A stretch of 19,150 bases of DNA from Bacteroidales bacterium (GTDB lineage: Bacteria; Bacteroidota; Bacteroidia; Bacteroidales; UBA932), in the NCBI GenBank assembly GCA_017429885.1, contig JAFROA010000290.1, positions 1 through 19,150 of the forward strand. Direction: 5' to 3'. The position numbers and the translations under genes are program-made. The notes below the pieces were generated by a model that was given only the letters and a program-made list of their open reading frames with translations, ran no database searches and was not told where the DNA came from. This document shows, in pieces, positions 2,095-19,150 of this stretch (position 1 is the stretch's first letter; the number at the start of each line of letters is the position of its first letter).

Positions 2095-2137
2095 GCAATT
2101 TCCAGCCAAAGGCATAGCCTTGAAACATGATAATGAT

Positions 2138-2145
2138 TATCTTTG
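2138..2145 (+). promoter_or_regulatory. Bacteroidota-type -7 promoter box for ROK kinase-manA unit
   Basis: The sequence TATCTTTG matches TAnnTTTG and sits 35 bases upstream of the kinase ATG in the 115-bp divergent intergenic region. The leader after it is A/T-rich with no strong Shine-Dalgarno, as is common in Bacteroidota. A CTTG at 2119-2122 is a weak and rather close -33 candidate. Confidence 0.55.
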
Positions 2146-2180
2146 TGTGATAGATTGAATCTTTAAAAACATCTTCCCAT

Positions 2181-3287
2181 ATGGCAGACATCAAAAAAGA
2201 CAGCAGAATCGTCCTGACCTTGGACGCCGGCGGCACCAACATGGTGTTCGGAGCGATGAAGGGCGGAGAGTATCACGGTGACACAATAACCCTTCCCTCG
2301 AACTCAGGCAATCTCGACCTTTGCCTCCAAGCGATGGTTTTGGGTTTCGCCACCATCATAGAGAGGCTCGGTGATGAGAAGCCGGTGGCCATAAGTTTCG
2401 CTTTCCCTGGCCCTGCGGACTATCCTAACGGAATCATCGGTGGCTTCCTCCCCAACTTCCCTTCTTTCAGGGACGGTGTGGCCCTGGGACCCTTCCTTCA
2501 GAAGAAGTTCGGTATCCCGGTGTTCATTAACAATGATGGCGATCTTTACGCCTATGGCGAGGCTCTTGGCGGAGCTCTTCCCGAGGTCAACAAGAGGCTG
2601 GAGGAGGCAGGATGCTCTAAGCGTTACCACAATCTCATCGGTTACACTTTCGGTACAGGTTTCGGTGTCGGTACCGTGATAGACGGCCGACTCAACCGGG
2701 GAGACAATTCCTGCGTCGAGACATTCTGCCTCAAGCATCCCGATATGCCAGACATAATAGTCGAGGATGGAGTCGCCATTCGTGCTGTCAAGAGGGTTTA
2801 TGGAGAGCTTTCCGGCAATCCCAGCCATGGTCTTGAACCGAAGGAAATTGGCGCTATAGCGAAGGGAACAGCTCCCGGTGACCGTGAGGCGGCGATCAAG
2901 GCATTCGATAAAATGGGAGAGGTCGCAGGCGACGCTATCGCCACTGCGGTCACTCTGATTGACGGTCTGGTCGTGATAGGAGGCGGAATCATGAATAACC
3001 ACGAGTTCCTGATGCCAGGAATACTCCGCACTATGCGCTCTAAGATGCATCAATTGACCGGTGAGGAACTCAACAGGGTGCAGATGAAGGTCTACAATCT
3101 TGACGATCCCTCGGAGTTCGTGGACTTCGCCCGCGGCGAGGCCAGGAAGCTGAAAGTTTACGGCAGTGATGATGAGGTGGTCTACGACCCTCAGAAGAGA
3201 ATCGGAATAATGCGCTCAAAGATTGGCGCGAGCAAGGCCATCTCTCTCGGAGCCTATGCTTTCGCCCTTTCAGAACTTGACAAATAG
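2181..3287 (+). CDS. ROK-family sugar kinase (probable hexokinase, possibly manno- or fructokinase)
   Basis: This cytoplasmic protein is predicted to phosphorylate a hexose with ATP. The 368-residue product has the ROK/actin-like fold signatures: phosphate loop DAGGTN at 15-20, a sugar-binding FPGP segment at 75-78, INNDG at 116-120 with D119 as the likely catalytic base, GTGFGVG at 158-164, and the second nucleotide-binding loop VIGGGI at 265-270. It is longer than typical ~300-residue ROK glucokinases. The classical ROK zinc motif CxCGxxGCxE is not intact: the region at 174-186 has only GDNSCVETFCLKH, so zinc binding may differ or be lost. The gene lies 11 bp upstream of mannose-6-phosphate isomerase. 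That pairing matches known kinase + isomerase pairs in mannan/glucomannan operons (gmuE-gmuF of Bacillus subtilis), so mannose or fructose is a reasonable substrate guess. Specificity cannot be read from the sequence. Confidence 0.88.
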   Translation: MADIKKDSRIVLTLDAGGTNMVFGAMKGGEYHGDTITLPSNSGNLDLCLQAMVLGFATIIERLGDEKPVAISFAFPGPADYPNGIIGGFLPNFPSFRDGVALGPFLQKKFGIPVFINNDGDLYAYGEALGGALPEVNKRLEEAGCSKRYHNLIGYTFGTGFGVGTVIDGRLNRGDNSCVETFCLKHPDMPDIIVEDGVAIRAVKRVYGELSGNPSHGLEPKEIGAIAKGTAPGDREAAIKAFDKMGEVAGDAIATAVTLIDGLVVIGGGIMNNHEFLMPGILRTMRSKMHQLTGEELNRVQMKVYNLDDPSEFVDFARGEARKLKVYGSDDEVVYDPQKRIGIMRSKIGASKAISLGAYAFALSELDK

Positions 3288-3291
3288 GAGG
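3286..3291 (+). promoter_or_regulatory. Strong Shine-Dalgarno for manA
   Basis: AGGAGG overlaps the TAG stop of the upstream kinase and lies 7 bases before the manA ATG. It is a textbook ribosome binding site, which most other genes in this window lack. It fixes the start at 3299 and suggests coupled translation with the kinase. Confidence 0.75.
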
Positions 3292-3298
3292 TTTTGAG

Positions 3299-4285
3299 AT
3301 GTATCCCCTAAAATTCAAGCCTTACCTTTGCGAAAAGGTCTGGGGCGGAGAGAAGATTGCCCCTTTCAAAGGAATATTCACAACCAGGAACCGCATCGGT
3401 GAAAGCTGGGAGATTTCAGCGGTAGAGGGTCATGTGTCTGTGGTCGAGAATGGCCCGCTAGCCGGGAAGTCGTTGACAGACATTATGAAAGAGAATGGAG
3501 CGGAACTCGCCGGAAAGAAGGTTGTGGCTAAGACAGGGACCGAATTCCCTCTCCTGATCAAGTTCATCGATGCCAAGCAGGATCTCTCTGTCCAAGTCCA
3601 TCCGACTGATGAGCTGGCCGCCAGGATAGCTCCGGGGCAGAAGGGAAAGACCGAGATGTGGTATGTCGTGGGAGCGGACAAGGGAGCCAAACTCTTGAGC
3701 GGCCTCACCCAAGAGATCACGCCGGAAGAATATGAGGAAAAGGTGAATGACAACACCATCACCGATGTCCTCGGACATTATCAGGTGCATCCCGGAGACG
3801 TGTTCTTCCTTCCTGCCGGACGTATTCATGCCATTGGAGCCGGCTCTTTCGTGGCGGAGATCCAGCAGACCTCTGACATTACCTACAGGATTTATGATTA
3901 TGGCCGCCTTGGACTTGACGGCAAGCCACGCGAGCTTCATCTTGAGAAGGCCAAGGAGGCCATAGACTACACTGTCTATCCCGACTATAGGACCAATTAT
4001 ACCCCCACAAAAAATGTCGAGACTCCGCTCGTCAGCTGCAAGTATTTCACCACCAACCTGTTCGATCTGAACAAGATGGTCTCAAAGAATCTTTCGGCAC
4101 TCGACTCATTCGTCGTGGTCATGTGCGTGGCCGGAAAGGGAGTTTTGGTTGACAACGAAGGTGACGGCAGTGTTCACCGTCTTGATCTCAAACAGGGCGA
4201 GACCGTTCTTGTTCCCGCCACATCCAGTACCATCGAGTTTCATCCTGACGGTGAAATGACATGCCTGGCCAGTTTCATAGAGTAA
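3299..4285 (+). CDS. manA: Mannose-6-phosphate isomerase, class I
   Basis: This zinc-dependent cytosolic enzyme interconverts mannose 6-phosphate and fructose 6-phosphate, linking mannose to glycolysis and to GDP-mannose synthesis. The 328-residue protein starts with the family-typical YPLKFKPYLCEKVWGG segment. It contains the cupin zinc ligands Q99 and H101 in QVHP, E119 in KTEMWYVV, and H177 in LPAGRIHAIGAG. These are followed by the catalytic-Arg region TYRIYDYGR (192-203). Length fits the short bacterial class I form. The start is fixed by AGGAGG 7 bases upstream. It is the second gene of a two-gene unit with the ROK kinase. Its last codons and stop lie inside an inverted repeat (4261-4297) that probably terminates transcription. 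The downstream gene is convergent. Confidence 0.95.
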   Translation: MYPLKFKPYLCEKVWGGEKIAPFKGIFTTRNRIGESWEISAVEGHVSVVENGPLAGKSLTDIMKENGAELAGKKVVAKTGTEFPLLIKFIDAKQDLSVQVHPTDELAARIAPGQKGKTEMWYVVGADKGAKLLSGLTQEITPEEYEEKVNDNTITDVLGHYQVHPGDVFFLPAGRIHAIGAGSFVAEIQQTSDITYRIYDYGRLGLDGKPRELHLEKAKEAIDYTVYPDYRTNYTPTKNVETPLVSCKYFTTNLFDLNKMVSKNLSALDSFVVVMCVAGKGVLVDNEGDGSVHRLDLKQGETVLVPATSSTIEFHPDGEMTCLASFIE

Positions 4286-4312: not shown

Positions 4313-4966
4313 CTACTTGAAAAGGAAGCTGACTCCGATATTGAAGGAGTTCCTGTAGGCCATCTCATCGTCGTACTTCAAGTCCTTGTTGTCCTTCAAG
4401 CACTTGGTGATACCGAAATCATAACCTCCGCGAAGCACGACAGCATCCGCGATAGTTATTCCCACACCTACGCCCCACTGAGCGTCAATTGGCCTTATGC
4501 TGGGGTAGGTTTTACCTGTGCTGAAGGAATTGCCTCCAACTCCCAAGTTGAGACGAGGACCAGTGAATACAGCAAATCCAAATCCCGAATCACTCGTCGG
4601 GAATGTGAATTTCAGATTGACAGGGATGTTGAAGTAATTGCAATGGTAGGACTTGTTCTTCTTATCATCAGAATCTCCGAAAGTGAAAGACTTCCCATAA
4701 TGAACAATGTTGAGACCTGGCTCCAAGGTCAAGCCCTCAATTGATGAGAACGGATAGTCCAAAATCACTCCGAAATAGAATCCCGGCAGAGGCTGAAAGC
4801 CCCAGCCTTTGGCTTTATCAGCACCCTCCCCGGAAAGGCTCATCATAGAGAAACCTCCGCCAAAAGACCATACACCATCGATGTTCGAGATCTGGCCGAA
4901 TGTCTTTGGGCCGGCAAGGAGCAACAGCGCTCCCATTAGTGTGACCAATACTTTCTTCATAGTCAT
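4313..4966 (-). CDS. Small outer-membrane beta-barrel protein (PorT/OMP_b-brl type)
   Basis: The 217-residue protein has a Sec signal peptide: MTMKK, then a hydrophobic stretch, with likely cleavage before Q25. Behind it are alternating hydrophobic strands rich in Gly and aromatics, ending in the aromatic-terminated strand NIGVSFLFK. This is the pattern of Bacteroidota 8-to-10-strand outer-membrane beta-barrels. A second Met at residue 3 (ATG at 4960) could be the true start. It is the last gene of the long minus-strand run, 21 bp after the S41 protease, and is followed by the inverted repeat at 4261-4297. I cannot assign a substrate or partner. A role as an assembly or accessory barrel is only a guess. 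Confidence 0.75.
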   Translation of the reverse strand: MTMKKVLVTLMGALLLLAGPKTFGQISNIDGVWSFGGGFSMMSLSGEGADKAKGWGFQPLPGFYFGVILDYPFSSIEGLTLEPGLNIVHYGKSFTFGDSDDKKNKSYHCNYFNIPVNLKFTFPTSDSGFGFAVFTGPRLNLGVGGNSFSTGKTYPSIRPIDAQWGVGVGITIADAVVLRGGYDFGITKCLKDNKDLKYDDEMAYRNSFNIGVSFLFK

Positions 4967-4987
4967 GAATATTTAATTTCTATTTAA

Positions 4988-7900
4988 TTACTTAATCTGA
5001 GGAAGACCGAGATCCTTGAACGTACGAGGCGCCGGCTTTCCAGGGAGATCCTTGTGGGACTTCTGGGTCTTGATCTGCTCGAGGGCGACCTCAATGGCCT
5101 TCAGGAGCTGCTCGTCAGTGCCGGCGTACTCCTTGATCGGGTCATTGTCCAAAAGGATGTCAGGATCGACACCATGATTCTCTATGATCCACTCACCTGT
5201 GTTGGGATCGTAACTGGTGGATCCCGGGACTCTCACGTCAGTCCCGTCCATGTAAGGCAGTGAGCCACCGATTCCGATGATACCACCCCATGTCCTGGTA
5301 CCGATGACGGTACCAAGGTTGTTGGCTTTGAAGCCCCAAGGGAAGAGGTCTCCGTCAGAAGCGGAATACTTATTGATCAGCAACACCTTAGGTCCAACAT
5401 GCGCTCCATCTGGAATGGTGCTGACACGGTTGGATCCGCGGCCGGCGTTCATCCTGTAGACAGTCCTTTGGAGACGCTCGATGATCATCGGGGAAACGTT
5501 ACCGCCACCGTTCTCACGATCGTCGATGATGAGAGCCTCCTTATCAAGCTGAGGATACCAGTAACGGGCGAACTCGTTCAGACCTTCTGCGCCCATGTCA
5601 GGAATGTAGATATAGCCGACCTTGCCGCCAGACTTCTCCTCGACGGTCTTGATGTTCTTGAGAATCCACTCGTAATGCTCGAGAGGATACTCATCGCTAA
5701 TCGGCCTGACCACGACCTTGCGGCCTCCCTCGACGGCTTTCTTATTGACAGTCAACTCGATGAGTTTGTCAGCCTTGCCAATGAGGAGCTTGTAGATATT
5801 ATCGACATCCTTCAGAGACTTGCCATTAATGGCCGTGATATAATCACCCTCAACGATTTCCATTCCAGGCTCAGTCAGAGGGCTGCGGAGCTCAGGCCTA
5901 TAGGTCGCACCCGCATAGATGTGATCAATCTTGAAATACCCCTTATCCTTGCTGACCTTTGCCCCAAGAAGTCCCATCGGGATACGCTCAGGCTTAGGAT
6001 AGGAACCGGGAGTGACATAAGCGTGGCCGCTAGCCACCTCAGCTATCATACCTCCGAGAATATAATTAAGATCAAGGCGAGTCTTGACATAAGGAAGGAG
6101 AGGCTCGTATTTGGCCTTGACACCCTTCCAGTCACGCCCGTGCATATTCTCAGTGTAGTAACCGTCTCGGAATGCCCTCCAAACCTCGTTGTAAATCTGA
6201 GGCCACTCCTGGGCGTAATCGATAGTGGCGTACATGTTGTCAGCGTCAATCTCCTCGCCACCACCAACTTTCGGAGACGGGAAATTAACGACCGTCGTCT
6301 TGCCCCTGGAAGATAGGATAGCCTTCTTGTCTCCAAGTCTGTAGCTGATCATTCCATCTGCGCAATCCTCGGTCTTTCCGGAAGCGAAGTCGTAAGTCTT
6401 GACAGCGCCACCACCAAAGCCTCCTCCGAAGCCTCCGCGGCCTCCACCCATGGCTCCTCCGGTGAACCATACCTTCTTACCATCGCTGAAGAACACCCTG
6501 CCGCTGACAGGAAGTTTAACGACTCTGTCAATAAGGCCGTCTGGATCGATCTTGGTCTCGGCGACCTTCTTCTCACCTTTGTCACCAGGTTTCTCACCAG
6601 GTTTGGCACCGGGGCCATCAGGGCGTCCAGGACGCTCTGGAGCCGCCTTCTCATCTTCCTTGGCGGGAGAAGTCTCGCTGTCGGAAGGCATCAAAGGAGA
6701 CGGGGTGTCCTTCGCGAGCATAACCATGTAGGTGCCAGACATATCGCTGTAAGCATAGTTCCACTCGATGCGGCTATAAATCGGGGTGAGATCCCTTTGG
6801 GCGGTGAATATCAAGTATTTCCCATCGGAGGAGAACATCGGGGAACCCGAATCGTACCATTTCTCGGTGACAGGGAACGACTTACCGGTGGAAAGGTTCT
6901 GGATATAGATGATACTCATGTCGTTGTCCGCCCGCTTTGTGTAGGCGATCCATTTGCTGTCGGGTGAGAAAGCGACTCCATAGAGACCTCCATCAGGGCT
7001 GGAGTAGACAACATTCTTCGCCTTTGTGGCCGGATCAACCTCGACAAGACGGTTCTTGCGGTCGGTGTAATAGATATGCTTGCCGTCCGGAGCCCACATC
7101 AAATTGCTGATGTAAGTGTCGTTATCCTTTGTGGCCTGAACAGTGGTCCCTGTGGCAGGCTCATAAAGATACACCTCATTCTCACCGGTGGAATCGCCGA
7201 TGTAGGCTATATATTTGCCGTCAGGACTCCATGAAGCGCCTCTTTCATTGGCGCCAGGAGTCTGGGAAATATTCCTTGTGATACCCTTGCCCACAGGCAC
7301 GTCGAAGACCTCTCCACGGGCAATCACTGCCGCTCTCTTGCCATCAGGAGATACGCTGAAACCTCTTCCGCTGACCTTCTTATACTCGGTACGAGAATAT
7401 ACCAAGTCGGAAGCGAGGGTGATATGGATCTGCTCAGCCTTCTTCGTGGCGGGATCGAGTTTGTAAAGGAAGCCTCCCTTCTCGAAAATGACCAACTTAC
7501 CATTGGTGCTGGGGAACTTCACGTCGAAATCATCGAAATTGGTGACCTTGGAAGTGGCCTTCGTCTTGGTGTTATAAACAAAGACATTCATCGTCATGTC
7601 TCGGTCAGAGACGAAATAAATCTCATCACCCACCCACATCGGGAAGATGTCCTGGGCGTCGTTATCCGTGATCTTCTCAACCTTTTTACCGTCATATACC
7701 CAGACCTCGTCGGCCATTCCGCCGCGATAGTACTTCCAGGTGCGGAACTCCCTCATCACACGGTTATAAGCCAGTTTCTTGCCATCCGGGGAATAGCTGC
7801 AGAAACCACCTTCGGGAAGAGGCAACTCCTCAGGCATTCCTCCGTTGATGGAGACTTTCCATAATTTTCCGGGGAAGCCGTCACCAGTCCTGTTGCGGTA

Positions 7901-8302
7901 TATGACATATTTCCCGTCAACAGTCCAACCCATGACTATATTATTGGGTCCCATACGGTCACCAAGGTCGTCACGGCCATTGGTGGCGGTGTAGGTAAGA
8001 CGCACGGGCTCTCCGCCGGTGGCGGGAATAATATAAACTTCCCTGTTGCCGTCATACTCACCTGTGAAGGCTATAGTCTTCCCGTCCGGGGAATATCTCG
8101 CGAACATCTCGTAACCAATGTGCGAGGTGAGACGCTTCGCCTCGCCTCCGGCAAGGGGAGCTGTGAACAAATCTCCAGCATAGGAGAAAACGACATCGGT
8201 TCCGTTTGTGGCGGGGAACCTGAGCAGGCGGGCCTCATCAGCCTTCGCCGGGAAGGTGAAAGCAAGGCCACACGCCAGGACCATCAAAAGGATTCTTTTC
8301 AT
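4988..8302 (-). CDS. Secreted tricorn-like S41 serine protease with beta-propeller and PDZ domains
   Basis: The 1104-residue protein starts with a signal peptide (about 1-21, cleaved near AKA-DE), so it is probably periplasmic. Residues ~25-530 carry repeated SPDGK/APDGK blades of WD40/PD40 type, forming beta-propellers like those of tricorn. Then come a Pro/Gly/Lys/Glu-rich linker (~545-585), a short Gly-rich loop (~615-633), a tricorn C1-like region (~690-765), a PDZ domain (~775-865) and the S41 catalytic core (~880-1065). Catalytic residues visible by analogy to tricorn are H760 in SGHAYV, nucleophile S982 in YSASDGD, D983 at the specificity position, and E1041 in ENHGVDPD. The residue before H760 is Gly where archaeal tricorn has Ser745. 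The size is close to archaeal tricorn. Known tricorn proteases trim peptides; with the M3 peptidase 25 bp upstream, sequential peptide breakdown is inferred. Confidence 0.92.
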   Translation of the reverse strand: MKRILLMVLACGLAFTFPAKADEARLLRFPATNGTDVVFSYAGDLFTAPLAGGEAKRLTSHIGYEMFARYSPDGKTIAFTGEYDGNREVYIIPATGGEPVRLTYTATNGRDDLGDRMGPNNIVMGWTVDGKYVIYRNRTGDGFPGKLWKVSINGGMPEELPLPEGGFCSYSPDGKKLAYNRVMREFRTWKYYRGGMADEVWVYDGKKVEKITDNDAQDIFPMWVGDEIYFVSDRDMTMNVFVYNTKTKATSKVTNFDDFDVKFPSTNGKLVIFEKGGFLYKLDPATKKAEQIHITLASDLVYSRTEYKKVSGRGFSVSPDGKRAAVIARGEVFDVPVGKGITRNISQTPGANERGASWSPDGKYIAYIGDSTGENEVYLYEPATGTTVQATKDNDTYISNLMWAPDGKHIYYTDRKNRLVEVDPATKAKNVVYSSPDGGLYGVAFSPDSKWIAYTKRADNDMSIIYIQNLSTGKSFPVTEKWYDSGSPMFSSDGKYLIFTAQRDLTPIYSRIEWNYAYSDMSGTYMVMLAKDTPSPLMPSDSETSPAKEDEKAAPERPGRPDGPGAKPGEKPGDKGEKKVAETKIDPDGLIDRVVKLPVSGRVFFSDGKKVWFTGGAMGGGRGGFGGGFGGGAVKTYDFASGKTEDCADGMISYRLGDKKAILSSRGKTTVVNFPSPKVGGGEEIDADNMYATIDYAQEWPQIYNEVWRAFRDGYYTENMHGRDWKGVKAKYEPLLPYVKTRLDLNYILGGMIAEVASGHAYVTPGSYPKPERIPMGLLGAKVSKDKGYFKIDHIYAGATYRPELRSPLTEPGMEIVEGDYITAINGKSLKDVDNIYKLLIGKADKLIELTVNKKAVEGGRKVVVRPISDEYPLEHYEWILKNIKTVEEKSGGKVGYIYIPDMGAEGLNEFARYWYPQLDKEALIIDDRENGGGNVSPMIIERLQRTVYRMNAGRGSNRVSTIPDGAHVGPKVLLINKYSASDGDLFPWGFKANNLGTVIGTRTWGGIIGIGGSLPYMDGTDVRVPGSTSYDPNTGEWIIENHGVDPDILLDNDPIKEYAGTDEQLLKAIEVALEQIKTQKSHKDLPGKPAPRTFKDLGLPQIK

Positions 8303-8327
8303 AAATAATATGATTTAAAACAATTGT

Positions 8328-10364
8328 CTATTCAAGGCCTCTAGCTCTAAGCAAGGCTCCAGGATCGGGCTGCGTGCGACGGAACATCATGTAAAGCACC
8401 ATCGGCTCCTCACTACCTCCCCTCTCAAGGAAAGTCTGGCGGAACTTCGCTGCCACGGCAGGATTGTAAATCCCGTTCTCCTCGAAATATTCAAAAGCGT
8501 CTTTATCAAGCACTTCCGCCCAAAGATAGCTATAGTAACCAGCGCTGTAACCGCTATTGAATATGTGGTTGAAATAGGTCGTGCGGTAGCGGGGTATAAT
8601 CTCGCCGGGAAGACCCATCTCCTTGCAGACCTTATCCTCGAAAGCGGCAACATTGGCAGCCTGGTCTCCCTCGCTCATTTTCGCCAAGTCCTCAAGAGTT
8701 AACTCATGCCATTTCATATCCAGAATCGACGCCGCACAAAGCTCCGCTGTCATGAAGCCCTGGTTGAACTTGCGGGAGTTGTTTATCTTAGCCACAAGAG
8801 AATCGGGGATAACCTCCCCTGTCTGGTAGTGCTTCGCATACATGGCGAGAATCTCGGGCTGGAAAGCCCAGTTCTCGTTGAACTGAGAGAAGGTCTCCAC
8901 GAAGTCACGCTTGACGCTTGTTCCACTCACTGATTTATAGGCGCACTTCGTCAAAAGCCCATGCAATCCGTGGCCGAACTCATGGAAAACGGTCTCCACA
9001 TTGTCAATGGTCAGAAGTCCCGGCTCAGTCTCAGTCGGAGGATTCATATTACCGACATTGACCACGATGGGACGCACGTCATTACCATCCTTGTCGAGAT
9101 ACTGGTCACGGAAAACATTCATCCACGCACCACCTCTCTTTGAGGAGCGGGGGAAATAGTCGGTCATGAATATTCCGAGAAGGCTACCGTCAGAGTCTGT
9201 GACTTTAAAGGTCTCGACAGCGGGATTGTACACGGGGACACCCTCCAACGGCTCCACATTGATGCCATATATCTTATGAGCGGCGGCGAAAATACCCTCC
9301 CTGACATTCTCCATCTTGAAATATGGCTTGGTCTGGCTCTCATCAAGGGCATACTTGCGAGCCCTGACCTTATCAGCATAATAGAACCAATCCCAAGGCT
9401 GGATGCTCGATCCCTTCGGAAGCTTACCTGCAGCGATATCCTCATCCATAATCTTCTGCATATCAGCGACTTCCTCTTTAGCCTTCACGTTGGCGGATTT
9501 TTGGATTTTGTCAAGGAACTCATCCACCGTAGCCGGATTTCCAGCCATCTGGTCGTCAAGCTGATAGGCGGCGAAAGAGTCGAAACCAAGCATCTTGGCT
9601 TTCTCGGCGCGGAGTTTCAAGATGTCAAGGGCGAGCGCCTTATTGTCATACTCGTTGCCATTGTTGCCCCTTGATGAATATGCCTTGAACATTTCCTCCC
9701 TGCGGGAGCGATCCTCGCAGGATGTCATCTCGTCGGTATAGGACGAGACGGGAATCCCGAACTTGTCCTTGAAAGCGTTATTCTCAGCGAGAAGGTTGGT
9801 TCCGAATTTCTGCTGGAGACCGGCGATCTTGATGTTGATTTCCTTCAGACGCTCCTGTGAGGCCTCATCCAGATCAACTCCATTGCGGGTGAAACTCTTA
9901 TATAGGTTTTTAAGGACCATCTGCTGCTCTCTTGTCAAGGCGCTCTGATCAGCCTCGTAAATCACCTTGACCCTCTCGAAGAACTTCTTGTTCATTGAGA
10001 TGGAGTTATCAAGGGCGGTAAGAAGCTCGGTTGCCTCCTCGGCGACTTTCTCCATCTCGGGACCGCCATCTGTCTCTTGGAGATTGAACAGCACTCCCGT
10101 GACCTTCTCGAGGATTTCCCCTGACTGCTCATAAGGATCGATAGTGTTCTTGAAAGTCGGAGCCTCCGGATTACTCAAGATCGCTTCCAATTCCTTCTCC
10201 TGTTGCTCAATACCGGCCTTGACGGCGGGAATATAATCAGCAAGGGTTATCTTATCGAACGGCGGGATGCCGTAGGGGGTGTCCCATTCCTGCAAGAACG
10301 GGTTCTTGGGTGTACAAGCTGTCATCGCCACAATCACTCCTATCGCTAATGTTGTTTTTCTCAT
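8328..10364 (-). CDS. M3-family zinc metallopeptidase lipoprotein (peptidyl-dipeptidase Dcp-like)
   Basis: This zinc peptidase is expected to release dipeptides from the C-terminus of oligopeptides. Starting at the ATG at 10364-10362, the product is 678 residues and begins with a lipoprotein signal, MRKTT through AMTAC, with Cys17 as the lipidation site. This places it in the periplasm or on a membrane. The HExxH zinc motif is HEFGH (H461, E462, H465), and the third ligand is probably E490 in DFVETFSQ. The helical M3 fold and the C-terminal YSAGYYSYLWAEVLDKDAF segment match Dcp/oligopeptidase A. An upstream in-frame ATG at 10403 would add 13 residues with no signal character and overlap the previous gene. 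The 10364 start instead leaves a 10-bp gap and exposes the lipoprotein signal, so I chose it. It is followed 25 bp later by the tricorn-like protease. Confidence 0.93.
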   Translation of the reverse strand: MRKTTLAIGVIVAMTACTPKNPFLQEWDTPYGIPPFDKITLADYIPAVKAGIEQQEKELEAILSNPEAPTFKNTIDPYEQSGEILEKVTGVLFNLQETDGGPEMEKVAEEATELLTALDNSISMNKKFFERVKVIYEADQSALTREQQMVLKNLYKSFTRNGVDLDEASQERLKEINIKIAGLQQKFGTNLLAENNAFKDKFGIPVSSYTDEMTSCEDRSRREEMFKAYSSRGNNGNEYDNKALALDILKLRAEKAKMLGFDSFAAYQLDDQMAGNPATVDEFLDKIQKSANVKAKEEVADMQKIMDEDIAAGKLPKGSSIQPWDWFYYADKVRARKYALDESQTKPYFKMENVREGIFAAAHKIYGINVEPLEGVPVYNPAVETFKVTDSDGSLLGIFMTDYFPRSSKRGGAWMNVFRDQYLDKDGNDVRPIVVNVGNMNPPTETEPGLLTIDNVETVFHEFGHGLHGLLTKCAYKSVSGTSVKRDFVETFSQFNENWAFQPEILAMYAKHYQTGEVIPDSLVAKINNSRKFNQGFMTAELCAASILDMKWHELTLEDLAKMSEGDQAANVAAFEDKVCKEMGLPGEIIPRYRTTYFNHIFNSGYSAGYYSYLWAEVLDKDAFEYFEENGIYNPAVAAKFRQTFLERGGSEEPMVLYMMFRRTQPDPGALLRARGLE

Positions 10365-10374: not shown

Positions 10375-11415
10375 CTATTGGATCTTGACGCCGTCAAGGT
10401 CAATTAGGGTAAACTGGGCCGCACCGTTGTAGTTGGTCAGGATGCCGGTCACATTGACCTTGGCTCCGCCAAGAATTATCTGATCAATCGGTGTGTCAGA
10501 GAACTTCGCATATCCGCTGGAACGGATCTGGATCTGAAGGTTACTACCATTGGACTTGGGCATATTGAAATACTGGCTCACAGCATAGGCTCCCGCATTA
10601 TTGATCAGCTCAGTACGATGGTCGCTGACCGTTCCATAGTTGTAATCACCGGAATTGCCGATCTTGGCGGAATCCCAGACACCCCACTGAAGATACGTCT
10701 TCATCTGCTGAGCACTGAAAGCCCAAGTGGTCACTCCCCACTGCTGGTCCGAGAGGAACAGTCGGTTGGAAGAGGCCTTCTTGTCGGCATTGCTGTCAAG
10801 ATAGATAAGTACAAAAATCTCCTTGCCATAAGTCAACCCGTTGAGAGTCACCAGTTTCCCGAAAAGCGGACCTTTATATCCCATTTTCAGGTTAGAGTCA
10901 ATCTCATCCGCTGTGACCACCTGGGGAGACAAGGGGCTTCCCTTTGGACCCTTGAACACATGCGAGGCGATAATGCTCTTCACGTCAATATATGCGGTCT
11001 CATATTCCCCGGTCGGATCCTCCATACCAATCTGGAGCATTCCACCGTAGTTGCCAAGGGCGAGACCCTGGCATTTGACATATAACATCTGCCCGACTTT
11101 ATAGTCATTGTACAGCGCTGAGTTGCCAATCTTGACCTCGATCGCTCCGGTCTCATCCTGGATGTAAAGGGAGCGGTAGATGTTTCCGGAAGCGTCAGAG
11201 GAAATCACCTGGCCTCCAATGATGATGTCCTGCTCGATGTGTACGGGCTTCCCTTGATAAAGGGCCTTCAAGCCGGCTATGGTGGTGTTAGGCTGCATTG
11301 TGGCGGCAGCCGGTTCGGCCGGTTCACCCTGATTGCCCAAAACGGGTTCCCACTCTTGGCAGGAAATAACTGTGAATGAGAGCGCTATCGCTATTGAATA
11401 TATTAACTTTCTCAT
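10375..11415 (-). CDS. DUF5689 OB-fold lipoprotein
   Basis: The 346-residue protein has a lipoprotein signal peptide (hydrophobic 5-17, Cys19 in VISC), so it is probably anchored in the outer membrane. From about residue 44 it shows the Bacteroidota DUF5689 pattern: TTIAGLKALYQG, VISSDASGNIYRSLYIQDETGAIEVKIG, then a second half ending in VNVTGILTNYNGAAQFTLIDLDGVKI. Strand order and the INVTG-like and LYIQDETGAI motifs suggest OB-like folds, the same architecture class as the repeat protein at the head of the operon. The biochemical function of DUF5689 is not established to my knowledge. It lies 16 bp after the TonB-dependent receptor, in the place a SusD lipoprotein would take in a glycan locus, so a ligand-capture partner role is inferred. 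A good Shine-Dalgarno (AGGAGA, 7 bases upstream) supports the start. Confidence 0.87.
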   Translation of the reverse strand: MRKLIYSIAIALSFTVISCQEWEPVLGNQGEPAEPAAATMQPNTTIAGLKALYQGKPVHIEQDIIIGGQVISSDASGNIYRSLYIQDETGAIEVKIGNSALYNDYKVGQMLYVKCQGLALGNYGGMLQIGMEDPTGEYETAYIDVKSIIASHVFKGPKGSPLSPQVVTADEIDSNLKMGYKGPLFGKLVTLNGLTYGKEIFVLIYLDSNADKKASSNRLFLSDQQWGVTTWAFSAQQMKTYLQWGVWDSAKIGNSGDYNYGTVSDHRTELINNAGAYAVSQYFNMPKSNGSNLQIQIRSSGYAKFSDTPIDQIILGGAKVNVTGILTNYNGAAQFTLIDLDGVKIQ

Positions 11416-11422
11416 AATCGTG

Positions 11423-11428
11423 TCTCCT
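11423..11428 (-). promoter_or_regulatory. Shine-Dalgarno for DUF5689 lipoprotein
   Basis: AGGAGA on the minus strand, 7 bases before the ATG at 11415, inside the 16-bp gap after the TonB-dependent receptor gene. It is one of only two clear Shine-Dalgarno sequences in the window and fixes the start. Confidence 0.55.
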
Positions 11429-11431
11429 GCT

Positions 11432-14317
11432 TTAGAATCTGAAATAAAGGTTCAGCATATAATTGAAACCAGACATGTAGAAATACTTCGGATCGAAGTT
11501 ATAGTAGCGGCTCTTGCTGACAGTGTTGTCGACCATCCTGGTCTGCTCGAAACCGCCGGTCTTGACATCCGTCTTATTAAGGATGTTCTTTGCGTTGAGC
11601 GAGAATCCAAGCTGGTATTTTCTCTGGATGTACCAGGACTTACCCACACTGAAGTTCACAAGCCAGGCCGGATCGAATTTCTCCTGTGAAGTCATAGCCT
11701 CGACCTCTTCAGGAGTGATGGTCTTGTCTGGACCCGCCGTGGCGTAGTCTGTGCGGCTCAACGGACTCATATCGAGATACGAATTGGCGAAATAATCCAC
11801 GTCCGCATCTATGAACCAGTAATTGTGGAAATAAGACAATCCGAGGCTTCCGGCAATCTGTGGCGTGCTGGGCACGTAATGCTTCTGATATGTCCCATCC
11901 GTTTTCGGAGTACCCTTCCAGTAAGGGACGGGAAGGTTCGAATAGATCGGGGAAGCGTTATTGTCGACAGTCGCTGTCAGGATCGGGGTAGATGTGTAGA
12001 TATATTCTCCTGCCGTGAAGGCGCCGACCACAGAAAGCCCGCTCAATGGAGTCGGAACCTCGAAGCCCAATTCCATTCCCGTGTGCCTCTCATCGATGCC
12101 GCTGAGGGCGAAGTTTCCGAATGAGTTGTTGAGGTCGTAATACACGCTCATCACGTCTGTCTGGTCGGTGATATTAGTGTAGAACCCGGTGATACGAAGG
12201 CTGTATCCGTTTGTGGCGTACATGTAGTTCAAGTCCGCGGAAAGCGCCTTTGTGTTCTCGATTCCCTTGATAAGGGTGTTCCTGGTCCTCGGGGCAACGA
12301 AAGCCTTATCGAAATACGGGGCCTCGCTGGAATAACCTGCGTTGGCGTAGATCCTGTGTCCACCTGTCAAGGTGTAGGTCAGGTTGATTTTGCCGGCGTA
12401 GGTAAGGAACGAGCTCTTCTCTGAATTGCCCTTGGAAGTGATCGGGGATCCGTCTTCCTCGTAAGAAGTGTAGATGTCATCTCCTATTTGGATAGGGTTC
12501 CCGTCGTCATCCAGACCAGGGAAAAGTCCCTTACGGACAAGACCCTCCCTCCAGAATGAGTTGGATCCCAACCTGCCGCCTACTGTCACGTCAAGACCGC
12601 CGAAAGCGAACTTGCCGGTAGCCCAGGCTTCCCCTTTAAGAAGGTGAGCATAGTAGTCATAACCATATTTGTCACCCACCTTCAGTTTGCGGGCCTCACC
12701 GTGGGAAAGATAGTAGTCAAGGTCGTTCTGAACCCTGATGGCTGATGCGGAATAATCCCTCTCAGCGAACTGGTCAACATCAAGGAAATAACTTCCTCCG
12801 AGCAGGTCGTTGATTGACTTGTAGTATTCTGTGCGGTTGTATTTTGCGTTGAAACCAGCCCTTACAGCGATGCCTGTCTTAGGTTTCCAAAGGATACTTG
12901 TGGCGAGATTGAGGTCGTTCTGGTCCACGTGCCTCTCCTCCAGGGCATATTTCGAACGCCCTCCATCGGAATTGCGGTTGACCGAATAAAGCCTGTCCCA
13001 ATCCACATGAGTGGTGGATGCCTGGTCTGTCTGCCATGCCTCCCTGGCCCAAGCCGCTTTCGTGGGATTCAGGCGGTTGTAATCCTCATTCGCCATATAG
13101 AAATAGCTCGGGAGGTTGCGGTAATAGTCCGGACGGGGATCCGGAGCGTCATACCAGTCAAGTGCTGTGTATCCGTTTTTACCGGTCCTGAAAAGAAGGG
13201 TGCTGGAGAGAGCGAATTCTTTCGATGGGGTGTAGTCGTATTTGAGGAAGGTGATAGGCTCGTAGGTTATCCTGTTGCGAGCGTTGCGGACCTTACCGTT
13301 CTGATATCCCCAGTTGGAGTTGTACATGTTGTCACCCATAAGGTCGTAAACCTCCTGGGTGGAAGCGTTCTGTGCTCCTCTCTGACCGGGAGCACCGAAG
13401 GTGACCAGAGCAAGGCGATGGACGTCACCCCAGTTCTTCTCCACACCGAGATAATAAGCGAAAGAACGATAGTAAACACCTTGTATCCAATCGTTTCCTC
13501 CAAGACGGGCGGAAGCGCTCACGGCGTAAGACCAGCCTTTATCATTCTCGGGAACAGCCCATGTCCCCATCAAACGAAGGCGGTAGAGGGCGCTGTTGGT
13601 GAGGATGCTGAACCTGTTGCCTGGACGGACCTGGCCCGGGGTCGCATAGATATTTGTCAATCCGTTATAACCTCCTATACCGTAAGGGGATATCTCCGAT
13701 CCGATAGCGGAGGATTTTGCCCTGGTGACCTCGTTGAGACCACTCCAGAGGGAATACGGGGAATAACCAGTCAAGGCATCGTTCATCTTCACTCCGGCGA
13801 TGTACACGTCCTGGGACTCGCTGGCATAGCCGCGGGCCTTGAAACGGACAGCGCTGAAGTTGTAACCTGCCTGGTTGTTGAACACGTCATTCTGGTCATA
13901 AAGGATCGTTGGGGTGTCCTCATACCCATTACCGTCCAGGTCGAACTCGCCGAATGAAGAGTCATCCACCTCACCAGCCACGACAGAGGGCGAAAGGCTG
14001 AGGTTGAACATATTCTTCACATAACCGTCATTGACCGTCACGTTGACAATGGTAGGAAGATACCCCGGGGCCTCTATCGTAAGGTTGTATATACCGTCAG
14101 CCAGTTCGCTGATGAGGAAGTTGCCTTTGGCGTCGGAACGCATCTCGCCAATTTCCGCGGCACCGGAAGTCAGCTTCAGCACAGCCCCTTCAATGGGAGT
14201 CCTGTCGGCCCTGTTGACTACCGTTCCCTTCACTCCTCCCGTCGGGATCTGGGCGTACATGACGACACCTGCCAGACAGGCGGCGAGGGCAACGGAAATT
14301 CTCTTGAGGATATTCAT
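11432..14317 (-). CDS. TonB-dependent outer-membrane receptor with CarboxypepD_reg-like N-terminal domain
   Basis: This outer-membrane active transporter is energised by TonB/ExbBD. The 961-residue protein has a signal peptide (about 1-22, cleaved before QIPTGG). A CarboxypepD_reg-like beta-sandwich follows at ~27-108 (GVKGTVVNRADRTPIEGAV, then GNFLISELADGIYNLTIEAPGY). Next is an acidic linker with DLDGNGYED at 126-134, a plug domain from ~140 (FSAVRFKARGYASESQDVYIAGVKMND), and a long beta-barrel ending in NLYFRF with a terminal Phe. It is not an obvious SusC: no SusD-type gene is adjacent. The partner immediately downstream is instead a DUF5689 lipoprotein. Upstream, only 1 bp away, is the EEP nuclease/phosphatase gene, followed by the NUC1 nuclease. 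Import of nucleic-acid fragments is therefore inferred from context; the substrate cannot be read from the barrel. Confidence 0.93.
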   Translation of the reverse strand: MNILKRISVALAACLAGVVMYAQIPTGGVKGTVVNRADRTPIEGAVLKLTSGAAEIGEMRSDAKGNFLISELADGIYNLTIEAPGYLPTIVNVTVNDGYVKNMFNLSLSPSVVAGEVDDSSFGEFDLDGNGYEDTPTILYDQNDVFNNQAGYNFSAVRFKARGYASESQDVYIAGVKMNDALTGYSPYSLWSGLNEVTRAKSSAIGSEISPYGIGGYNGLTNIYATPGQVRPGNRFSILTNSALYRLRLMGTWAVPENDKGWSYAVSASARLGGNDWIQGVYYRSFAYYLGVEKNWGDVHRLALVTFGAPGQRGAQNASTQEVYDLMGDNMYNSNWGYQNGKVRNARNRITYEPITFLKYDYTPSKEFALSSTLLFRTGKNGYTALDWYDAPDPRPDYYRNLPSYFYMANEDYNRLNPTKAAWAREAWQTDQASTTHVDWDRLYSVNRNSDGGRSKYALEERHVDQNDLNLATSILWKPKTGIAVRAGFNAKYNRTEYYKSINDLLGGSYFLDVDQFAERDYSASAIRVQNDLDYYLSHGEARKLKVGDKYGYDYYAHLLKGEAWATGKFAFGGLDVTVGGRLGSNSFWREGLVRKGLFPGLDDDGNPIQIGDDIYTSYEEDGSPITSKGNSEKSSFLTYAGKINLTYTLTGGHRIYANAGYSSEAPYFDKAFVAPRTRNTLIKGIENTKALSADLNYMYATNGYSLRITGFYTNITDQTDVMSVYYDLNNSFGNFALSGIDERHTGMELGFEVPTPLSGLSVVGAFTAGEYIYTSTPILTATVDNNASPIYSNLPVPYWKGTPKTDGTYQKHYVPSTPQIAGSLGLSYFHNYWFIDADVDYFANSYLDMSPLSRTDYATAGPDKTITPEEVEAMTSQEKFDPAWLVNFSVGKSWYIQRKYQLGFSLNAKNILNKTDVKTGGFEQTRMVDNTVSKSRYYNFDPKYFYMSGFNYMLNLYFRF

Positions 14318-14318
14318 A

Positions 14319-15401
14319 TTACTTGTTGGATATTACTATGTAAGTTGGATAGTGGTCGCTGTAACCGTTGATGAAAGCCCCGTTGGACGAGGTTCTCTTA
14401 GGGGTTCCTTTGTACTGACCCTCCTGCTGGGTCATGAAGGGCTGTTGGAACACCCTGCCGTAGAATTTCTTCTTGACCAGAGGTTGGATGCCAAAGGTTC
14501 CTTTCGCCGGATTCACGAGATTCTGATTGACCATGATGATGTCGAATATGCACCAGACACCTTGATAAGCGAGAGAGCCGTATCCGGCTTTGATCATCGA
14601 GAGGAAAGGATCGAAGAAATCCTCCTTACCGACTTCGGAGATATTCTCCTTGCCGTGGAGATAAGTCACCATACTCTCATCGAACGGGTTGTCATTCATA
14701 TCCCCCATCACAACGATCTTGATTCCGGGATATTTCTCCATGAGACTCATGGCATTCTCGTGGATGATCTCGGCTCCCCTGGAACGAAGGTCACCGCTCT
14801 TCCCGCCAATCCTGGAGGGAAGGTGGGTAACATAAAAGGCGAACATCTCGTCACCGATGGTACCCCTCACCTCAAGAATATCCCTGGTGCGGAAATTCGC
14901 CTGCTCCTCAGGTGTCATTGAGAAATTGATGGACTGGGAGTCGAAAGTGAAAGGTATCGAACGGCTTTCCAAAAGGGTGAACTGGTCCGGTCTGTAAAGG
15001 AGACCGCAGTCCACGCCACGCCTGTCGGGACCATCGTAATGGACAATCTGGAAATTGGCGTCGGCTATCTCTGGCTGGGAAACCAGATCCTCAAGCACGT
15101 TGCGATTCTCAATCTCGCTGACGCCCAAGACGGTGTGATACACCTTGTTGTCGTCCTTCATCGCCCGAATCACTTCGGCCATATTGTGGAGTTTCTTCTG
15201 GTATTTGACATCGGTCCACTGATTGGCACCGTCCGGAAGATACTCGTAGTCGTTCTTGCCTTCGTCGTGATAAGTGTCGAACAGGTTCTCGAGGTTATAG
15301 AACCCGATCACGTGGGTCTTCTGCACCTTCTGCGCCCCGGCGAATGGAGCGAGAATAAGGATGGCGGCGAAAGCCAAGACTATGCTATATACTTTTCTCA
15401 T
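14319..15401 (-). CDS. Secreted endonuclease/exonuclease/phosphatase (EEP) superfamily protein
   Basis: The 360-residue protein has a signal peptide (about 1-23, ending in AGA before QKVQ), so it is probably periplasmic or secreted. It carries the DNase I/EEP fold signatures in order: GFYNLENLFDT (33-43, N36), GVSEIENR (93-100, metal ligand E96), GVDCGLLYRPD (129-139), YVTHLPSR (190-197, H193), VMGDMNDNP (231-239, D234 and N236) and the C-terminal GYSDHYP (346-352, catalytic D349-H350). All key catalytic positions are present, so it should be an active Mg-dependent phosphodiesterase or phosphatase. EEP members cut DNA, RNA or phospho-substrates, so the exact substrate is open. It lies between a NUC1 nuclease lipoprotein (20 bp upstream) and a TonB-dependent receptor (1 bp downstream), which favours oligonucleotide processing. 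Confidence 0.92.
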   Translation of the reverse strand: MRKVYSIVLAFAAILILAPFAGAQKVQKTHVIGFYNLENLFDTYHDEGKNDYEYLPDGANQWTDVKYQKKLHNMAEVIRAMKDDNKVYHTVLGVSEIENRNVLEDLVSQPEIADANFQIVHYDGPDRRGVDCGLLYRPDQFTLLESRSIPFTFDSQSINFSMTPEEQANFRTRDILEVRGTIGDEMFAFYVTHLPSRIGGKSGDLRSRGAEIIHENAMSLMEKYPGIKIVVMGDMNDNPFDESMVTYLHGKENISEVGKEDFFDPFLSMIKAGYGSLAYQGVWCIFDIIMVNQNLVNPAKGTFGIQPLVKKKFYGRVFQQPFMTQQEGQYKGTPKRTSSNGAFINGYSDHYPTYIVISNK

Positions 15402-15421
15402 TGACTATTAGTTTATTATAC

Positions 15422-16696
15422 TTATTGCCACCACCAGCTGACGGTAGCGGGATTTTCTTCTTTGATGGCTTTATAGGTCTCGGCCCCGACTTTGGCCTCA
15501 AGGTTCACGAACAGCTTGTAACCGAGTTTCTTCTCAAGGTCGGCCACGGACATGGACAGGTCCTTGTTGATCTTCGACCCGTACTTGTTCTCATTCTCAA
15601 AGTAGAAGGCGCAGGCCATGAAGCCTTTATGGCCGACAGACTCGTTGTTCTTGTACCTTAACAGGGCTTTGAAATATCCTTCCGGGACAGCCACGGCTTT
15701 GCCGTGATTGTCATAAGCCTTGATCGTTGACTCTCCGACAAAACAACCCGTAACCACATAGAGGGTATCGGTCCCGGCCGTAGCGCCAGTCTTCTTCGCC
15801 CATGTGCGGACCTGGTTCTCAAGGTTTGACCAAATGCCTCCGTTGAAGTCATGATTTTGAGGAGTCATATTAACTCCATAAAAAGTCTGAACGTTCGCTT
15901 CTCTGGAAGTCAATCTGTCTGCTGAAGGGATTTGGTGCCCCCTGTCCAAAACACCATTGTATTTGTAACCGTAGCCTGAATAGGCGTTGAACAAAACAGG
16001 TTGCTTGGTGTTTGGTATCAGCGGATCGAGTCCCCACTCATCGGAACGGCCGCCGCTGCCGATATTACCGGCACAGAGCGGATAGGCCACCCAAGGGGCC
16101 ACGAGGTTGTCGTAGTCCCAGTCAAAAGAATAATTCCTCACGGTGGCGCCGCCGATTTTCATATAGTGGGTGAAGAACTCAAGCTTATCATCCTCAGGAG
16201 TTTCCGGCAATTCGAGCCATTTGTGCTGAGCTGTCTTGAAACCATAACCGTTCCCATCTTGAGGAGGATCATCGCCGGAGGGACCTGATCCAGGCGGTGT
16301 CGGGGGGACAGGAACAACAAGTTTGCTCTGGGTGATATTAGCGACTGCGGAACCTCCAGAACTAGAGATAGTTACAGAGGCCGTACGAATAGCGTCGGTG
16401 TTCTCGGTGTAGCTGAGAACAACTGTGCTGGAACTGCCGGAACCGCTTGAAGGGCTCACAGTGAGCCACGTCGCGTTTGTGGAGATTGTCCAGTTTCCCG
16501 TAGCAGTCACTGTCAGGAATTGGCTGCCCGCCTCTCCCGAGACCGACTGAGTCTTGATGCTGACAGAAGGCGGGACAAGAGGTTCCTCTTTACCGCCATT
16601 CTCCGAACCGCCACCACAGGATACGACCATCAGTGACAGCGCCAAAAGCGCTGCCACTGATCTCGTAATCGCATAAACCCGGCGGTTAACAGTCAT
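15422..16696 (-). CDS. BACON-domain DNA/RNA non-specific endonuclease (NUC1 family) lipoprotein
   Basis: The 424-residue protein has a lipoprotein signal (hydrophobic 13-25, Cys27 in VVSC followed by GGGSENGG). The flexible Gly/Ser/Asn tail after Cys27 is typical of surface-exported Bacteroidota lipoproteins. Residues ~43-125 form a BACON beta-sandwich (GNWTISTNATWLTVSPSSG, then ASVTISSSGGSAVANITQSK). A Pro/Gly linker (~127-150) joins it to a beta-beta-alpha-metal nuclease domain (~155-424). The nuclease motif is DRGHQIPSADR (251-261) with general base H254. NMTPQNHDFNGGIWSNLE (276-293) supplies the metal ligand N285 and the conserved E293. The Serratia-type consensus is DRGHL; Gln follows His here. 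It is expected to cleave single- and double-stranded DNA and RNA without sequence preference at the cell surface. It starts 2 bp after the end of the broken OB-repeat gene and lies 20 bp before the EEP gene. Confidence 0.93.
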   Translation of the reverse strand: MTVNRRVYAITRSVAALLALSLMVVSCGGGSENGGKEEPLVPPSVSIKTQSVSGEAGSQFLTVTATGNWTISTNATWLTVSPSSGSGSSSTVVLSYTENTDAIRTASVTISSSGGSAVANITQSKLVVPVPPTPPGSGPSGDDPPQDGNGYGFKTAQHKWLELPETPEDDKLEFFTHYMKIGGATVRNYSFDWDYDNLVAPWVAYPLCAGNIGSGGRSDEWGLDPLIPNTKQPVLFNAYSGYGYKYNGVLDRGHQIPSADRLTSREANVQTFYGVNMTPQNHDFNGGIWSNLENQVRTWAKKTGATAGTDTLYVVTGCFVGESTIKAYDNHGKAVAVPEGYFKALLRYKNNESVGHKGFMACAFYFENENKYGSKINKDLSMSVADLEKKLGYKLFVNLEAKVGAETYKAIKEENPATVSWWWQ

Positions 16697-17149
16697 AACT
16701 ATTCAGCAAACGTGACCTCCACTTTCTGCAAACGCCAGTGACCAGAACCTGAAGCTCGAGTCACAATTATAGACTTAGAAGAACCCGTCCATGTGGCAGT
16801 CGCGTCTTAGATTGCAATACTCCCCACATTGACAGAATAATCGCTAGAAATCGGATAGGTTTTATAAGTAACCGTATTATTTCCAGAACCGGAAGTTCCT
16901 GTAGCTTTGTTAAATGTATAAACTATCTTGGTAATAGTCTTAGAAGAGGACTCTACTCTAATATAGCCATTGCCATAAGTTCGAACCCCTTCACCAGTAC
17001 TGTAATACTTACCATCATTAGAGCCCTTTCCGAAAGCGACCTTGAAATCAGTTCCGTTAATAACAGTTTTATCATCTCCACTGCCATTATACTGCTTACC
17101 ATTCTCAATGTTGAGACTTGAAAACACTATCGTGTTGCCTGATACCTCT

Positions 17150-17194
17150 CCGCCAGGAGTGTCTCCACCGGGAGTGTCGCCACCTGGCGTGTCA
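17150..17194 (-). repeat. Three 15-bp repeats encoding a GDTPG linker
   Basis: A 15-bp unit of the type CCACCGGGAGTGTCG (plus strand) occurs three times with minor changes, encoding repeated DTPGG in the surface protein. It is a flexible interdomain linker ahead of the C-terminal beta-sandwich and is a candidate for slippage-driven length change. Confidence 0.75.
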
Positions 17195-17730
17195 CCATCT
17201 CCACCGGTGATGGCTGTTCCATTGATGTCGGTAGCGATGACGTAGAGATACTTATCGCCGGACTTGGCGGTTGTGTGGTAGAGATAGTAACCCTTGATCG
17301 TAACCTCCTTGCCATTAAGGGAGGAGATGTCTTCAACAGGCTTCACTATGCTTCCGGTCACGGTCTCAGCTCCAGCGACAGTGATGTTGAAATACTTGTC
17401 ATTCTCGATTGAAAGCGTGCCTTTGTAAGTCACGAATTCACGGGTCTCCGCAGAATATGACCCGAACGAGGAGGTGATGTCCTTGGCCTCGGGATAAGTG
17501 ACCTCAACTCCTGTGGAGTTAACCGTCACCTTCGGATCCGTAAGCTGAGGAACCTCTTTATATTCAGCACGTGTAGCCTCAACAGTGACATTGGAGCCAA
17601 CAGCGGCCTTGCCACCATAGACATAGATCAAAGCTCCATCCTGCTCCATGAGGAACCCGGCGGAAGCGGAAGCCACAACAACAGCGGGACCGACCTTCAA
17701 CTGAGAATCATTCTCGGCGGCAATCGCCTC

Positions 17731-18630
17731 TGCGACAGTTGCCTCTTGAGCCTCAGGCGGAGCGGCCGCCTCGAAGGAGAGAATGTATGCCTCAATAACT
17801 TCATGCTGCTCTTTAGCCGCATAATAGTCGTATTTACCAGCAAGAGTAACAGTTCCTTCATTGGAGACTTTAGAAGACCACTCATTCTTGTTAGCGACAC
17901 TGTAAACATAGATAGTTCCGCTGTCATCAGTCAAATCAAAGCTGCAATACTGGGAGTTGAACTTGCTGACGGTACCGGTAAGTTTGAAGTAAGTGTTCTT
18001 ATCAGCCGCAGATATGAAGTCTGCAACAGTCTTGGGCTCTGCATCGCTGTAATCTGGCTGCTCCCCAGCCTCGAAGGAGAGAATCTGGGCACTGACAACC
18101 TCATGCTGCTCCTTGGAGGAGTAGTAATCGTATTTACCCGCCAAGGTTACAGTGCCTCCATTGGAAATCTTCGAGGCCCAATCAGCCTTATTAGCAACAC
18201 TGTAAACATAGATCGAGCCACTCTCATCCGTTATATCGAAGCTGCAGAACTGCGAGTTGAACCCGCTGACGGTACCGGTAAGTTTGAAGTAAGTGTTCTT
18301 GTCCGCAGCAGATATGAACTCAGCGACGCTCTTTGGCTCCGCATTCTCGTAATCCTCACCTTGACCTTCCTCGAAGGAGAGAATCTGGGCGCTTACGACC
18401 TCATGCTGGCTGTTCTTCTCGTAGTAGGTATACAGACCGGCAAGCTCAACGGTGCCTCCGTTCTTGATCTTGTCAACCCATTCGTCTTTGTTGTTAACGC
18501 TGTAGACATAGATCTTACCGCTGTCATCTGTCAAATCGAAGCTGCAGTACTCCTTATTGAAACGACTTACTGTTCCTTTAAGACGGTAGAAATGGGCCTT
18601 ATCAGCCTTATCAATGAACGCCTGGACAGT
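17731..18630 (-). repeat. Three tandem 300-bp repeats encoding OB-fold units
   Basis: The coding sequence repeats with an exact 300-bp (100-residue) period: units 18630-18331, 18330-18031 and 18030-17731. CTCGAAGGAGAGAAT recurs on the plus strand at 17770, 18070 and 18370. A longer segment containing GACGGTACCGGTAAG recurs at about 17968 and 18268. Each protein unit runs from VAxFISAADKNTYFKL through GTVSxFNSQYCSFDLTDDSG, IYVYSVANK and GTVTLAGKYDYY to EHVV-like SAQILSFE. Units 2 and 3 are nearly identical at the DNA level; unit 1 (transcription order) is more diverged. Confidence 0.9.
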
Positions 18631-19150
18631 TATGAGTTCGAACTTGGTGAAATCAATCTTGGCAGGCTCTGTGCTGCCGTTGATGGAAATGAGCTTGCTG
18701 CCAGCGGTGTATTCCGGAGTAGTTCCCTTGAAATTGACCAGAGTTCCGTATACGACAACCTCATCCCCGACCTTTAACTGATCTGCCAATAGGAAGTTTT
18801 CACCATTGAGATACTTGCCACTGTAGACCTCGAGCTGTGTCTCGGCCGTTCCATCAGCGGAGATAAAGTAGGAAGCGTTGCCATAGCTCGGATCGACTTC
18901 TACAGATACAACCTTACCCTTGGTATAGACCGTCGCGGAGTTCTGTGTTCCGAGGACATCTCAATTGTTGTACGCGACAAGCGACTGTGCTTTCTGTAGC
19001 GCTGCGGCGACATTGTAAGGATCGGCCGCTGTTCCGCTGCCTGAAGGAGTCACGTTAGGATCCTCTCCCTTCTGACCCTTCTGCGAGACTGTGACTGTCT
19101 TGAAGTCAAAGTCAGTCTTAACTTTGAAGGAGGAAGTCCTGTCGTGTGAA

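Follow-up and report, generated by a model that had tools for sequence, protein, structure and literature searches.

A putative nuclease-equipped variant of a TonB-linked DNA-uptake module in a Bacteroidales genome

We analyzed a candidate nucleic-acid uptake operon in a Bacteroidales bacterium, using as our window the entire 19150-base contig JAFROA010000290.1 of a genome that is 68% complete. The minus strand of this window carries, in order, a broken OB-fold-repeat gene, a nuclease lipoprotein gene (NUC), a gene of the endonuclease/exonuclease/phosphatase family (EEP), a TonB-dependent receptor gene, a DUF5689 lipoprotein gene, an M3 peptidase gene, a tricorn-like protease gene, and a gene for a small barrel (Table 1). 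The original prediction, made from the letters alone, had described the first five as an operon with gaps of 1–20 bp, and this was confirmed in part: the four core genes, from NUC to DUF5689, are spaced by 20, 1, and 16 bp on one strand, but the OB-fold gene is not intact and the operon continues past 10375, the M3 peptidase following DUF5689 after 10 bp and the tricorn-like protease and small barrel after 25 and 21 bp (4313–10364), and in the window’s clade the M3 peptidase is the sixth operon gene. The closest titled relatives of the window belong to uncultured Bacteroidales, mainly from ruminant guts, and the receptor of isolate RUG579 (locus L202) is 100% identical.

Table 1 Operon features in the window (minus-strand genes, listed in order of transcription)
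Feature	Position	Strand	Family match or remark
BACON + OB-fold-repeat gene	16699..19150	-	incomplete, runs off contig end; stops at 18961-18963 and 16807-16809; longest open piece is ORF 16807-18789
NUC, BACON + Serratia-type DNA/RNA non-specific endonuclease lipoprotein	15422..16696	-	Endonuclease_NS (PF01223) 5.5e-34, BACON 1.5e-10
EEP, endonuclease/exonuclease/phosphatase family, signal peptide read from sequence	14319..15401	-	Exo_endo_phos_3 (PF19580) 2.7e-90
TonB-dependent receptor, N-terminal CarboxypepD_reg	11432..14317	-	CarboxypepD_reg 1.3e-12, TonB barrel 9.3e-09
DUF5689 lipoprotein, receptor partner, OB fold at residues ~29-165	10375..11415	-	DUF5689 1.1e-45; lipobox read from sequence
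M3-family (Dcp-like) peptidase	8328..10364 (ATG at 10364)	-	PF01432 5.7e-125; lipobox MTAC read from sequence

Family matches bore out the predicted identities of all four core genes (Table 1), and the catalytic motifs proposed for both nucleases are kept. NUC matches the Serratia nuclease 1ql0 at 1e-12 and has the makeup of a Serratia-type non-specific nuclease, i.e., a DRGH motif and an N/N/E set, with D251, R252, G253, H254, N276, N285, and E293 invariant in 9/9 sequences; a lipobox (VVSC) can be read from its sequence. EEP carries the residues of its superfamily, N36, E96, H193, D234, N236, D349, and H350 being invariant in all 72 receptor-adjacent EEPs. We take these conserved residues to be catalytic in NUC and of the active-site type in EEP. 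Likeness of EEP to named nucleases is weak, both for the ExeM/NucH DNase model of NCBIfam (22.3 bits against a cut-off of 300) and for ExoIII models, and a PDB sequence search returned nothing below E 0.05. Across 20 chosen genomes, the EEP family yielded 1–5 matches per genome, some of them pieces of one gene; since all 20 have it, with and without the receptor, EEPs have other jobs too. At L114 (8010–15949), a NUC operon that includes a fimbrillin-like protein closes with a clostripain-family peptidase.

The receptor has the plug and barrel of a TonB-dependent transporter, the fold matches listed being BtuB, FhuA, OprC, and kin, with SusC not among them; nor did it match, at E 0.001 in NCBIfam, the SusC/RagA model that we assume this collection to contain. 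For both the receptor and the DUF5689 protein, PDB sequence searches gave nothing below E 0.05. An AlphaFold2 model of the DUF5689 protein (mean predicted local distance difference test, pLDDT, 85.5) supports the predicted OB fold: the modelled N-terminal domain is an OB fold, with fold matches to HIN, RPA70, Teb1, LysRS, and MCM10. By sequence, the protein matches the NCBIfam M949_1556 lipoprotein family at 8.6e-20 and 71 bits, under the cut-off of 475; the Riemerella DUF5689 protein belongs to the NCBI family named after M949_1556. As the original prediction had noted, no SusD gene is visible: the eight window proteins scanned gave no match to the SusD family at E up to 0.1, three genes at 1–4285 lying outside the scan. 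Anti-phage families were likewise unmatched for three proteins at E 0.001.

The gene upstream of NUC had been predicted to encode an OB-fold surface protein, but it cannot be read as an intact gene here: two stops interrupt the frame, which leaves the contig at 19150. Measured from the open piece, NUC lies 110 bp away; taking the frame through to the stop at 16699–16701 reduces this gap to 2 bp. In isolate RUG579 the gene at the same place is intact and encodes 880 residues with BACON and OB domains; the stops in the window may reflect decay or an assembly error. Of 64 window-type loci that extend far enough, 56 have an OB or DUF5689 protein in this position. Long DUF5689-matching proteins occur as the gene before NUC in L053 (13627–16290) and L143 (3–6646) and as the second gene past the receptor in L187 (12310–16356), which suggests from sequence that OB repeats and DUF5689 may form a single family of DNA-holding domains. 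Further upstream, L202 (449–4926) has genes for a metallophosphoesterase and an exodeoxyribonuclease-III-like protein, with similar gene starts in L203 and L207; in L142 and L224 that region instead encodes an OMP_b-brl_4 receptor and a BACON protein.

Next, we evaluated the conservation of this arrangement. Window-type loci were sampled as the best 80 of at least 519 by receptor likeness, from named genome records, and thus represent the near end of the family; gene order was counted on all open reading frames (ORFs), since spurious antisense ORFs in high-GC loci hid genes, and scored where the stretch has room. EEP lay directly upstream of the receptor on the same strand in 78/78 loci, NUC upstream of EEP in 70/70, and DUF5689 directly downstream of the receptor in 78/79. 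These loci are related, so that shared descent accounts for part of the conserved order. The M3 peptidase gene directly followed DUF5689 in 57 of 73 loci and was elsewhere in the stretch in 6, a conserved position that suggests a link to DNA-bound protein or a shared transcript.

A broader, phylum-wide sample comprised the window and 112 chosen stretches (40 from a set with 56/247 matching genomes, 12 from one with 116/120, and 60 from one with 98/198). It contained 109 strong receptors. DUF5689 was the next same-strand gene in 107 of these 109 by gene order, and in 103 by a strict distance rule. EEP was found within 600 bp upstream of the receptor in 69/106 loci with room (64 divergent, 5 co-directional), an adjacency that is not random given the 1–5 EEP matches per genome in the 20 chosen genomes, and NUC was within 9 kb of the receptor in 9/99.

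Across 198 genomes of the order, 92 had a strong receptor, 92 a strong DUF5689, and 91 both, where “strong” stands for thresholds of our own choosing (E below 1e-40 for the receptor and 1e-25 for DUF5689) and at most four receptor candidates were scored per genome; all 13 weaker DUF5689 matches fell in receptor-negative genomes. Relatedness among these genomes inflates such a co-occurrence test; however, in eleven families with one receptor-positive and one receptor-negative genome (f68, f69, f72, f73, f84, f109, f112, f113, f114, f115, and f125), strong DUF5689 tracked the receptor every time. The 20 chosen genomes behaved similarly, with strong DUF5689 in the 15 receptor carriers and, among the five without a receptor, none in four and a weak match in one. 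Overall, the operon is real and conserved, and the receptor and DUF5689 are a near-obligate pair. The original prediction had named the absence of conserved linkage as grounds for rejecting it; the linkage is kept (78/78, 78/79, and 91 of 92). Two Bacteroidales genomes each hold two copies of the receptor module (L282 and L166 in G440, L283 and L165 in G543), and CRISPR-type genes, Cas9-like by reading of their sequence, adjoin the module at L104 (16491–19901) and L107 (10894–15090).

The strongest pointer to function comes from Riemerella anatipestifer. In a published screen (Huang 2021), unmarked deletion of RA0C_RS04915, a CarboxypepD_reg outer-membrane protein, or of RA0C_RS04920, a protein with DUF5689 and DUF5017, is reported to bring transformation below detection, and the authors’ speculative model has DNA bound by RS04920 and carried by RS04915 (PMC8459023). 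The same text describes a unique transformation machinery whose essential proteins are unlike any known; it considers homologues to be widespread among Bacteroidetes but reports the receptor from Flavobacteriaceae only, and its main text has RS04910 once, as an upstream gene with unchanged transcription (PMC8459023). Mutants in tonBA and tonBB are also reported to have reduced transformation, the former showing no defect of iron uptake in the medium used (PMC8383284). The window receptor aligns with its Riemerella homologue over the whole length (30% identity, 1e-112), and the window DUF5689 protein, 16 bp directly downstream of it, matches its counterpart at 1e-15, chiefly in the OB domain. 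Linkage to comEC, seen at the Riemerella locus, is lacking in the window.

We took locus L104 as Riemerella, as it has an exact match to a published primer and matches a 94% identical cluster named R. anatipestifer; a second genome with this genus code likewise matches the primer exactly, and a third differs from it by one mismatch. The order at L104 is a RecA-like start, a DinB-like gene, three succinate-dehydrogenase-like genes, ComEC, two further genes, EEP, the receptor, and DUF5689 with DUF5017, where we presume the names RecA, DinB, and succinate dehydrogenase from the starts of the proteins. This order fits the published tags of recA, comEC, and the pair if tags step by five per gene, and on that count RS04910 would fit EEP. 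The ComEC arrangement was seen in L104 and L105 only, among 12 loci compared; a gene near the receptor of L046 was considered as ComEC and rejected, as its start reads as Rho, and L104 is the true match. No comEC was found in the 20-kb stretch L103, taken as R. columbina. Since R. columbina is reported to be transformable too (PMC7965970), comEC linkage does not define the module.

Taken together, nucleic acid as the substrate is well supported, because the Riemerella homologues are essential for transformation, tonB mutants are impaired, and DUF5689 has an OB fold. The original scheme of binding, cutting, and importing nucleic acid is in line with these observations, with the conserved linkage and with the kept nuclease residues, and the interpretation built on it is supported in part. 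We conclude that the window operon is a version, with nucleases added, of a TonB-linked DNA-uptake module about which little is known, and that it is probably an outer-membrane machine for nucleic-acid uptake in the version used for feeding in the window’s clade. Extracellular DNA would be held at the cell surface by the OB-fold and DUF5689 lipoproteins, the latter being the likely DNA binder at the receptor. Long DNA would be cut by the anchored NUC and trimmed further by the secreted EEP, a presumed working partner of the pair, and the pieces would be pulled through the outer membrane by the TonB-dependent receptor. By analogy, and in keeping with the near-obligate pairing, DUF5689 would partner this receptor as SusD does SusC. 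The product would most likely be food (phosphate, nitrogen, nucleosides), and the M3 peptidase perhaps handles DNA-bound protein. Without NUC, and often flanked by EEP, the receptor-DUF5689 core may be what lets DNA through the outer membrane during transformation in Riemerella, and perhaps in many other Bacteroidota.

For the window version, feeding rather than gene uptake is favored with moderate confidence, on the grounds that a Serratia-type nuclease has been added and that three relatives carry a separate transformation-type copy. Among 120 genomes of the Chryseobacterium-Riemerella family (judging by the names, Weeksellaceae), G290, G306, and G318 have a NUC operon together with a second, transformation-type receptor, that of G318 being known from the receptor match alone; NUC operons would thus serve a purpose other than gene uptake. 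In the receptor tree, the five window-type receptors of our first sample group together, with full local support for their clade, and all nine NUC-linked rows fall within one 20-member group, weakly supported (79). Several observations weigh against a feeding machine for nucleic acid. EEP lies outside the 600-bp range in 37/106 phylum-wide loci, and F. johnsoniae is reported to have homologues and yet no transformation under the conditions tried. A single receptor locus was found in each of the three searched genomes of the window’s family, i.e., its own, G371, and G488 (4 of 5 candidates scored).

That single locus is also in keeping with the window operon being itself a natural-transformation system, in which NUC cuts DNA for entry, the task of DNA-entry nucleases in Gram-positive competence, and DNA passes on to ComEC. 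In the experiments found on the pair its role is transformation, and ComEC is present in the same three genomes, with DprA in G371 and G488. However, ComEC is near universal in the order (188/198), so that its presence says little, and HHH_3 (192/198, best matches mostly in frames of ~700 residues) and NamZ/DUF1343 (182/198) were equally uninformative as competence markers. DprA was not found in the window’s own incomplete genome, neither ComEC nor any other competence gene was found in the window, and a non-specific nuclease would destroy long DNA; we consider this reading unlikely. Alternatively, the substrate could be nucleotides, oligonucleotides, RNA, or phosphate esters, with EEP acting as a phosphatase in phosphorus scavenging. 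Some members of the EEP superfamily are phosphatases, neither NUC nor OB folds tell DNA from RNA, and the metallophosphoesterase and Exo_endo_phos (ExoIII-like) genes upstream of the OB gene in L202, with genes of similar start in L203 and L207, point the same way. The weak likeness of EEP to ExeM/NucH and ExoIII models and the need for a homologous pair in DNA transformation argue for DNA instead, and make this substrate improbable. A role of the pair in outer-membrane or O-antigen integrity, with DNA uptake affected indirectly and the nucleases neighbors by history, appears very improbable. M949_1556 is reported in citing papers to have a role in O-antigen synthesis, antigenicity, and pathogenicity of R. 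anatipestifer, which weighs against direct uptake since the transformation defect could then have an indirect cause, and the 37 loci with no EEP nearby fit such a role. Nuclease genes are nevertheless found next to the pair again and again, across many lineages and in two orientations; the OB fold of DUF5689 and the drop of transformation to below detection, beyond a mere lowering, also speak against such a role.

A wider scenario may be sketched, to which we give slightly less than an even chance: throughout Bacteroidota, DNA would enter across the outer membrane via a TonB-dependent transporter with an OB-fold lipoprotein as its lid, an alternative to the route by type IV pilus and secretin. 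One ancestral module would serve for gene exchange, and a nuclease-armed version, as in the window, would have been turned to feeding. The pairing is near-obligate in the 198 genomes analyzed from this order, a nuclease gene is often the third member, and rumen and gut bacteria have a version armed with nucleases; two questions thus become testable: whether a TonB transporter imports DNA, and whether gut bacteria eat extracellular DNA through it. The parts are known singly; for the nuclease-armed combination, the near-obligate pairing, and the EEP link, no earlier description was found in the literature searched, which did not include preprints.

Among known systems, SusCD polysaccharide-utilization loci likewise combine a receptor, a surface lipoprotein, and secreted hydrolases in one operon. 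The predicted resemblance to such loci holds by analogy but not in the parts: neither SusD among the scanned proteins nor a SusC/RagA match was found, the lipoprotein has an OB fold, and the hydrolases are nucleases. Shewanella ExeM/ExeS and the Serratia nuclease serve extracellular DNA use and share with the window secreted EEP-type and Serratia-type nucleases, whereas in the window these are tied to a TonB-dependent receptor and EEP falls far under the ExeM cut-off. Gram-positive EndA/NucA place a surface nuclease next to a DNA-entry route, but differ in envelope and import machine. The R. anatipestifer pair shares with the window an outer-membrane barrel with CarboxypepD_reg and, after it, a DUF5689 protein, with EEP adjoining in L104; there, unlike in the window, EEP is divergent, the NUC and OB-repeat genes are absent, and comEC and recA lie nearby.
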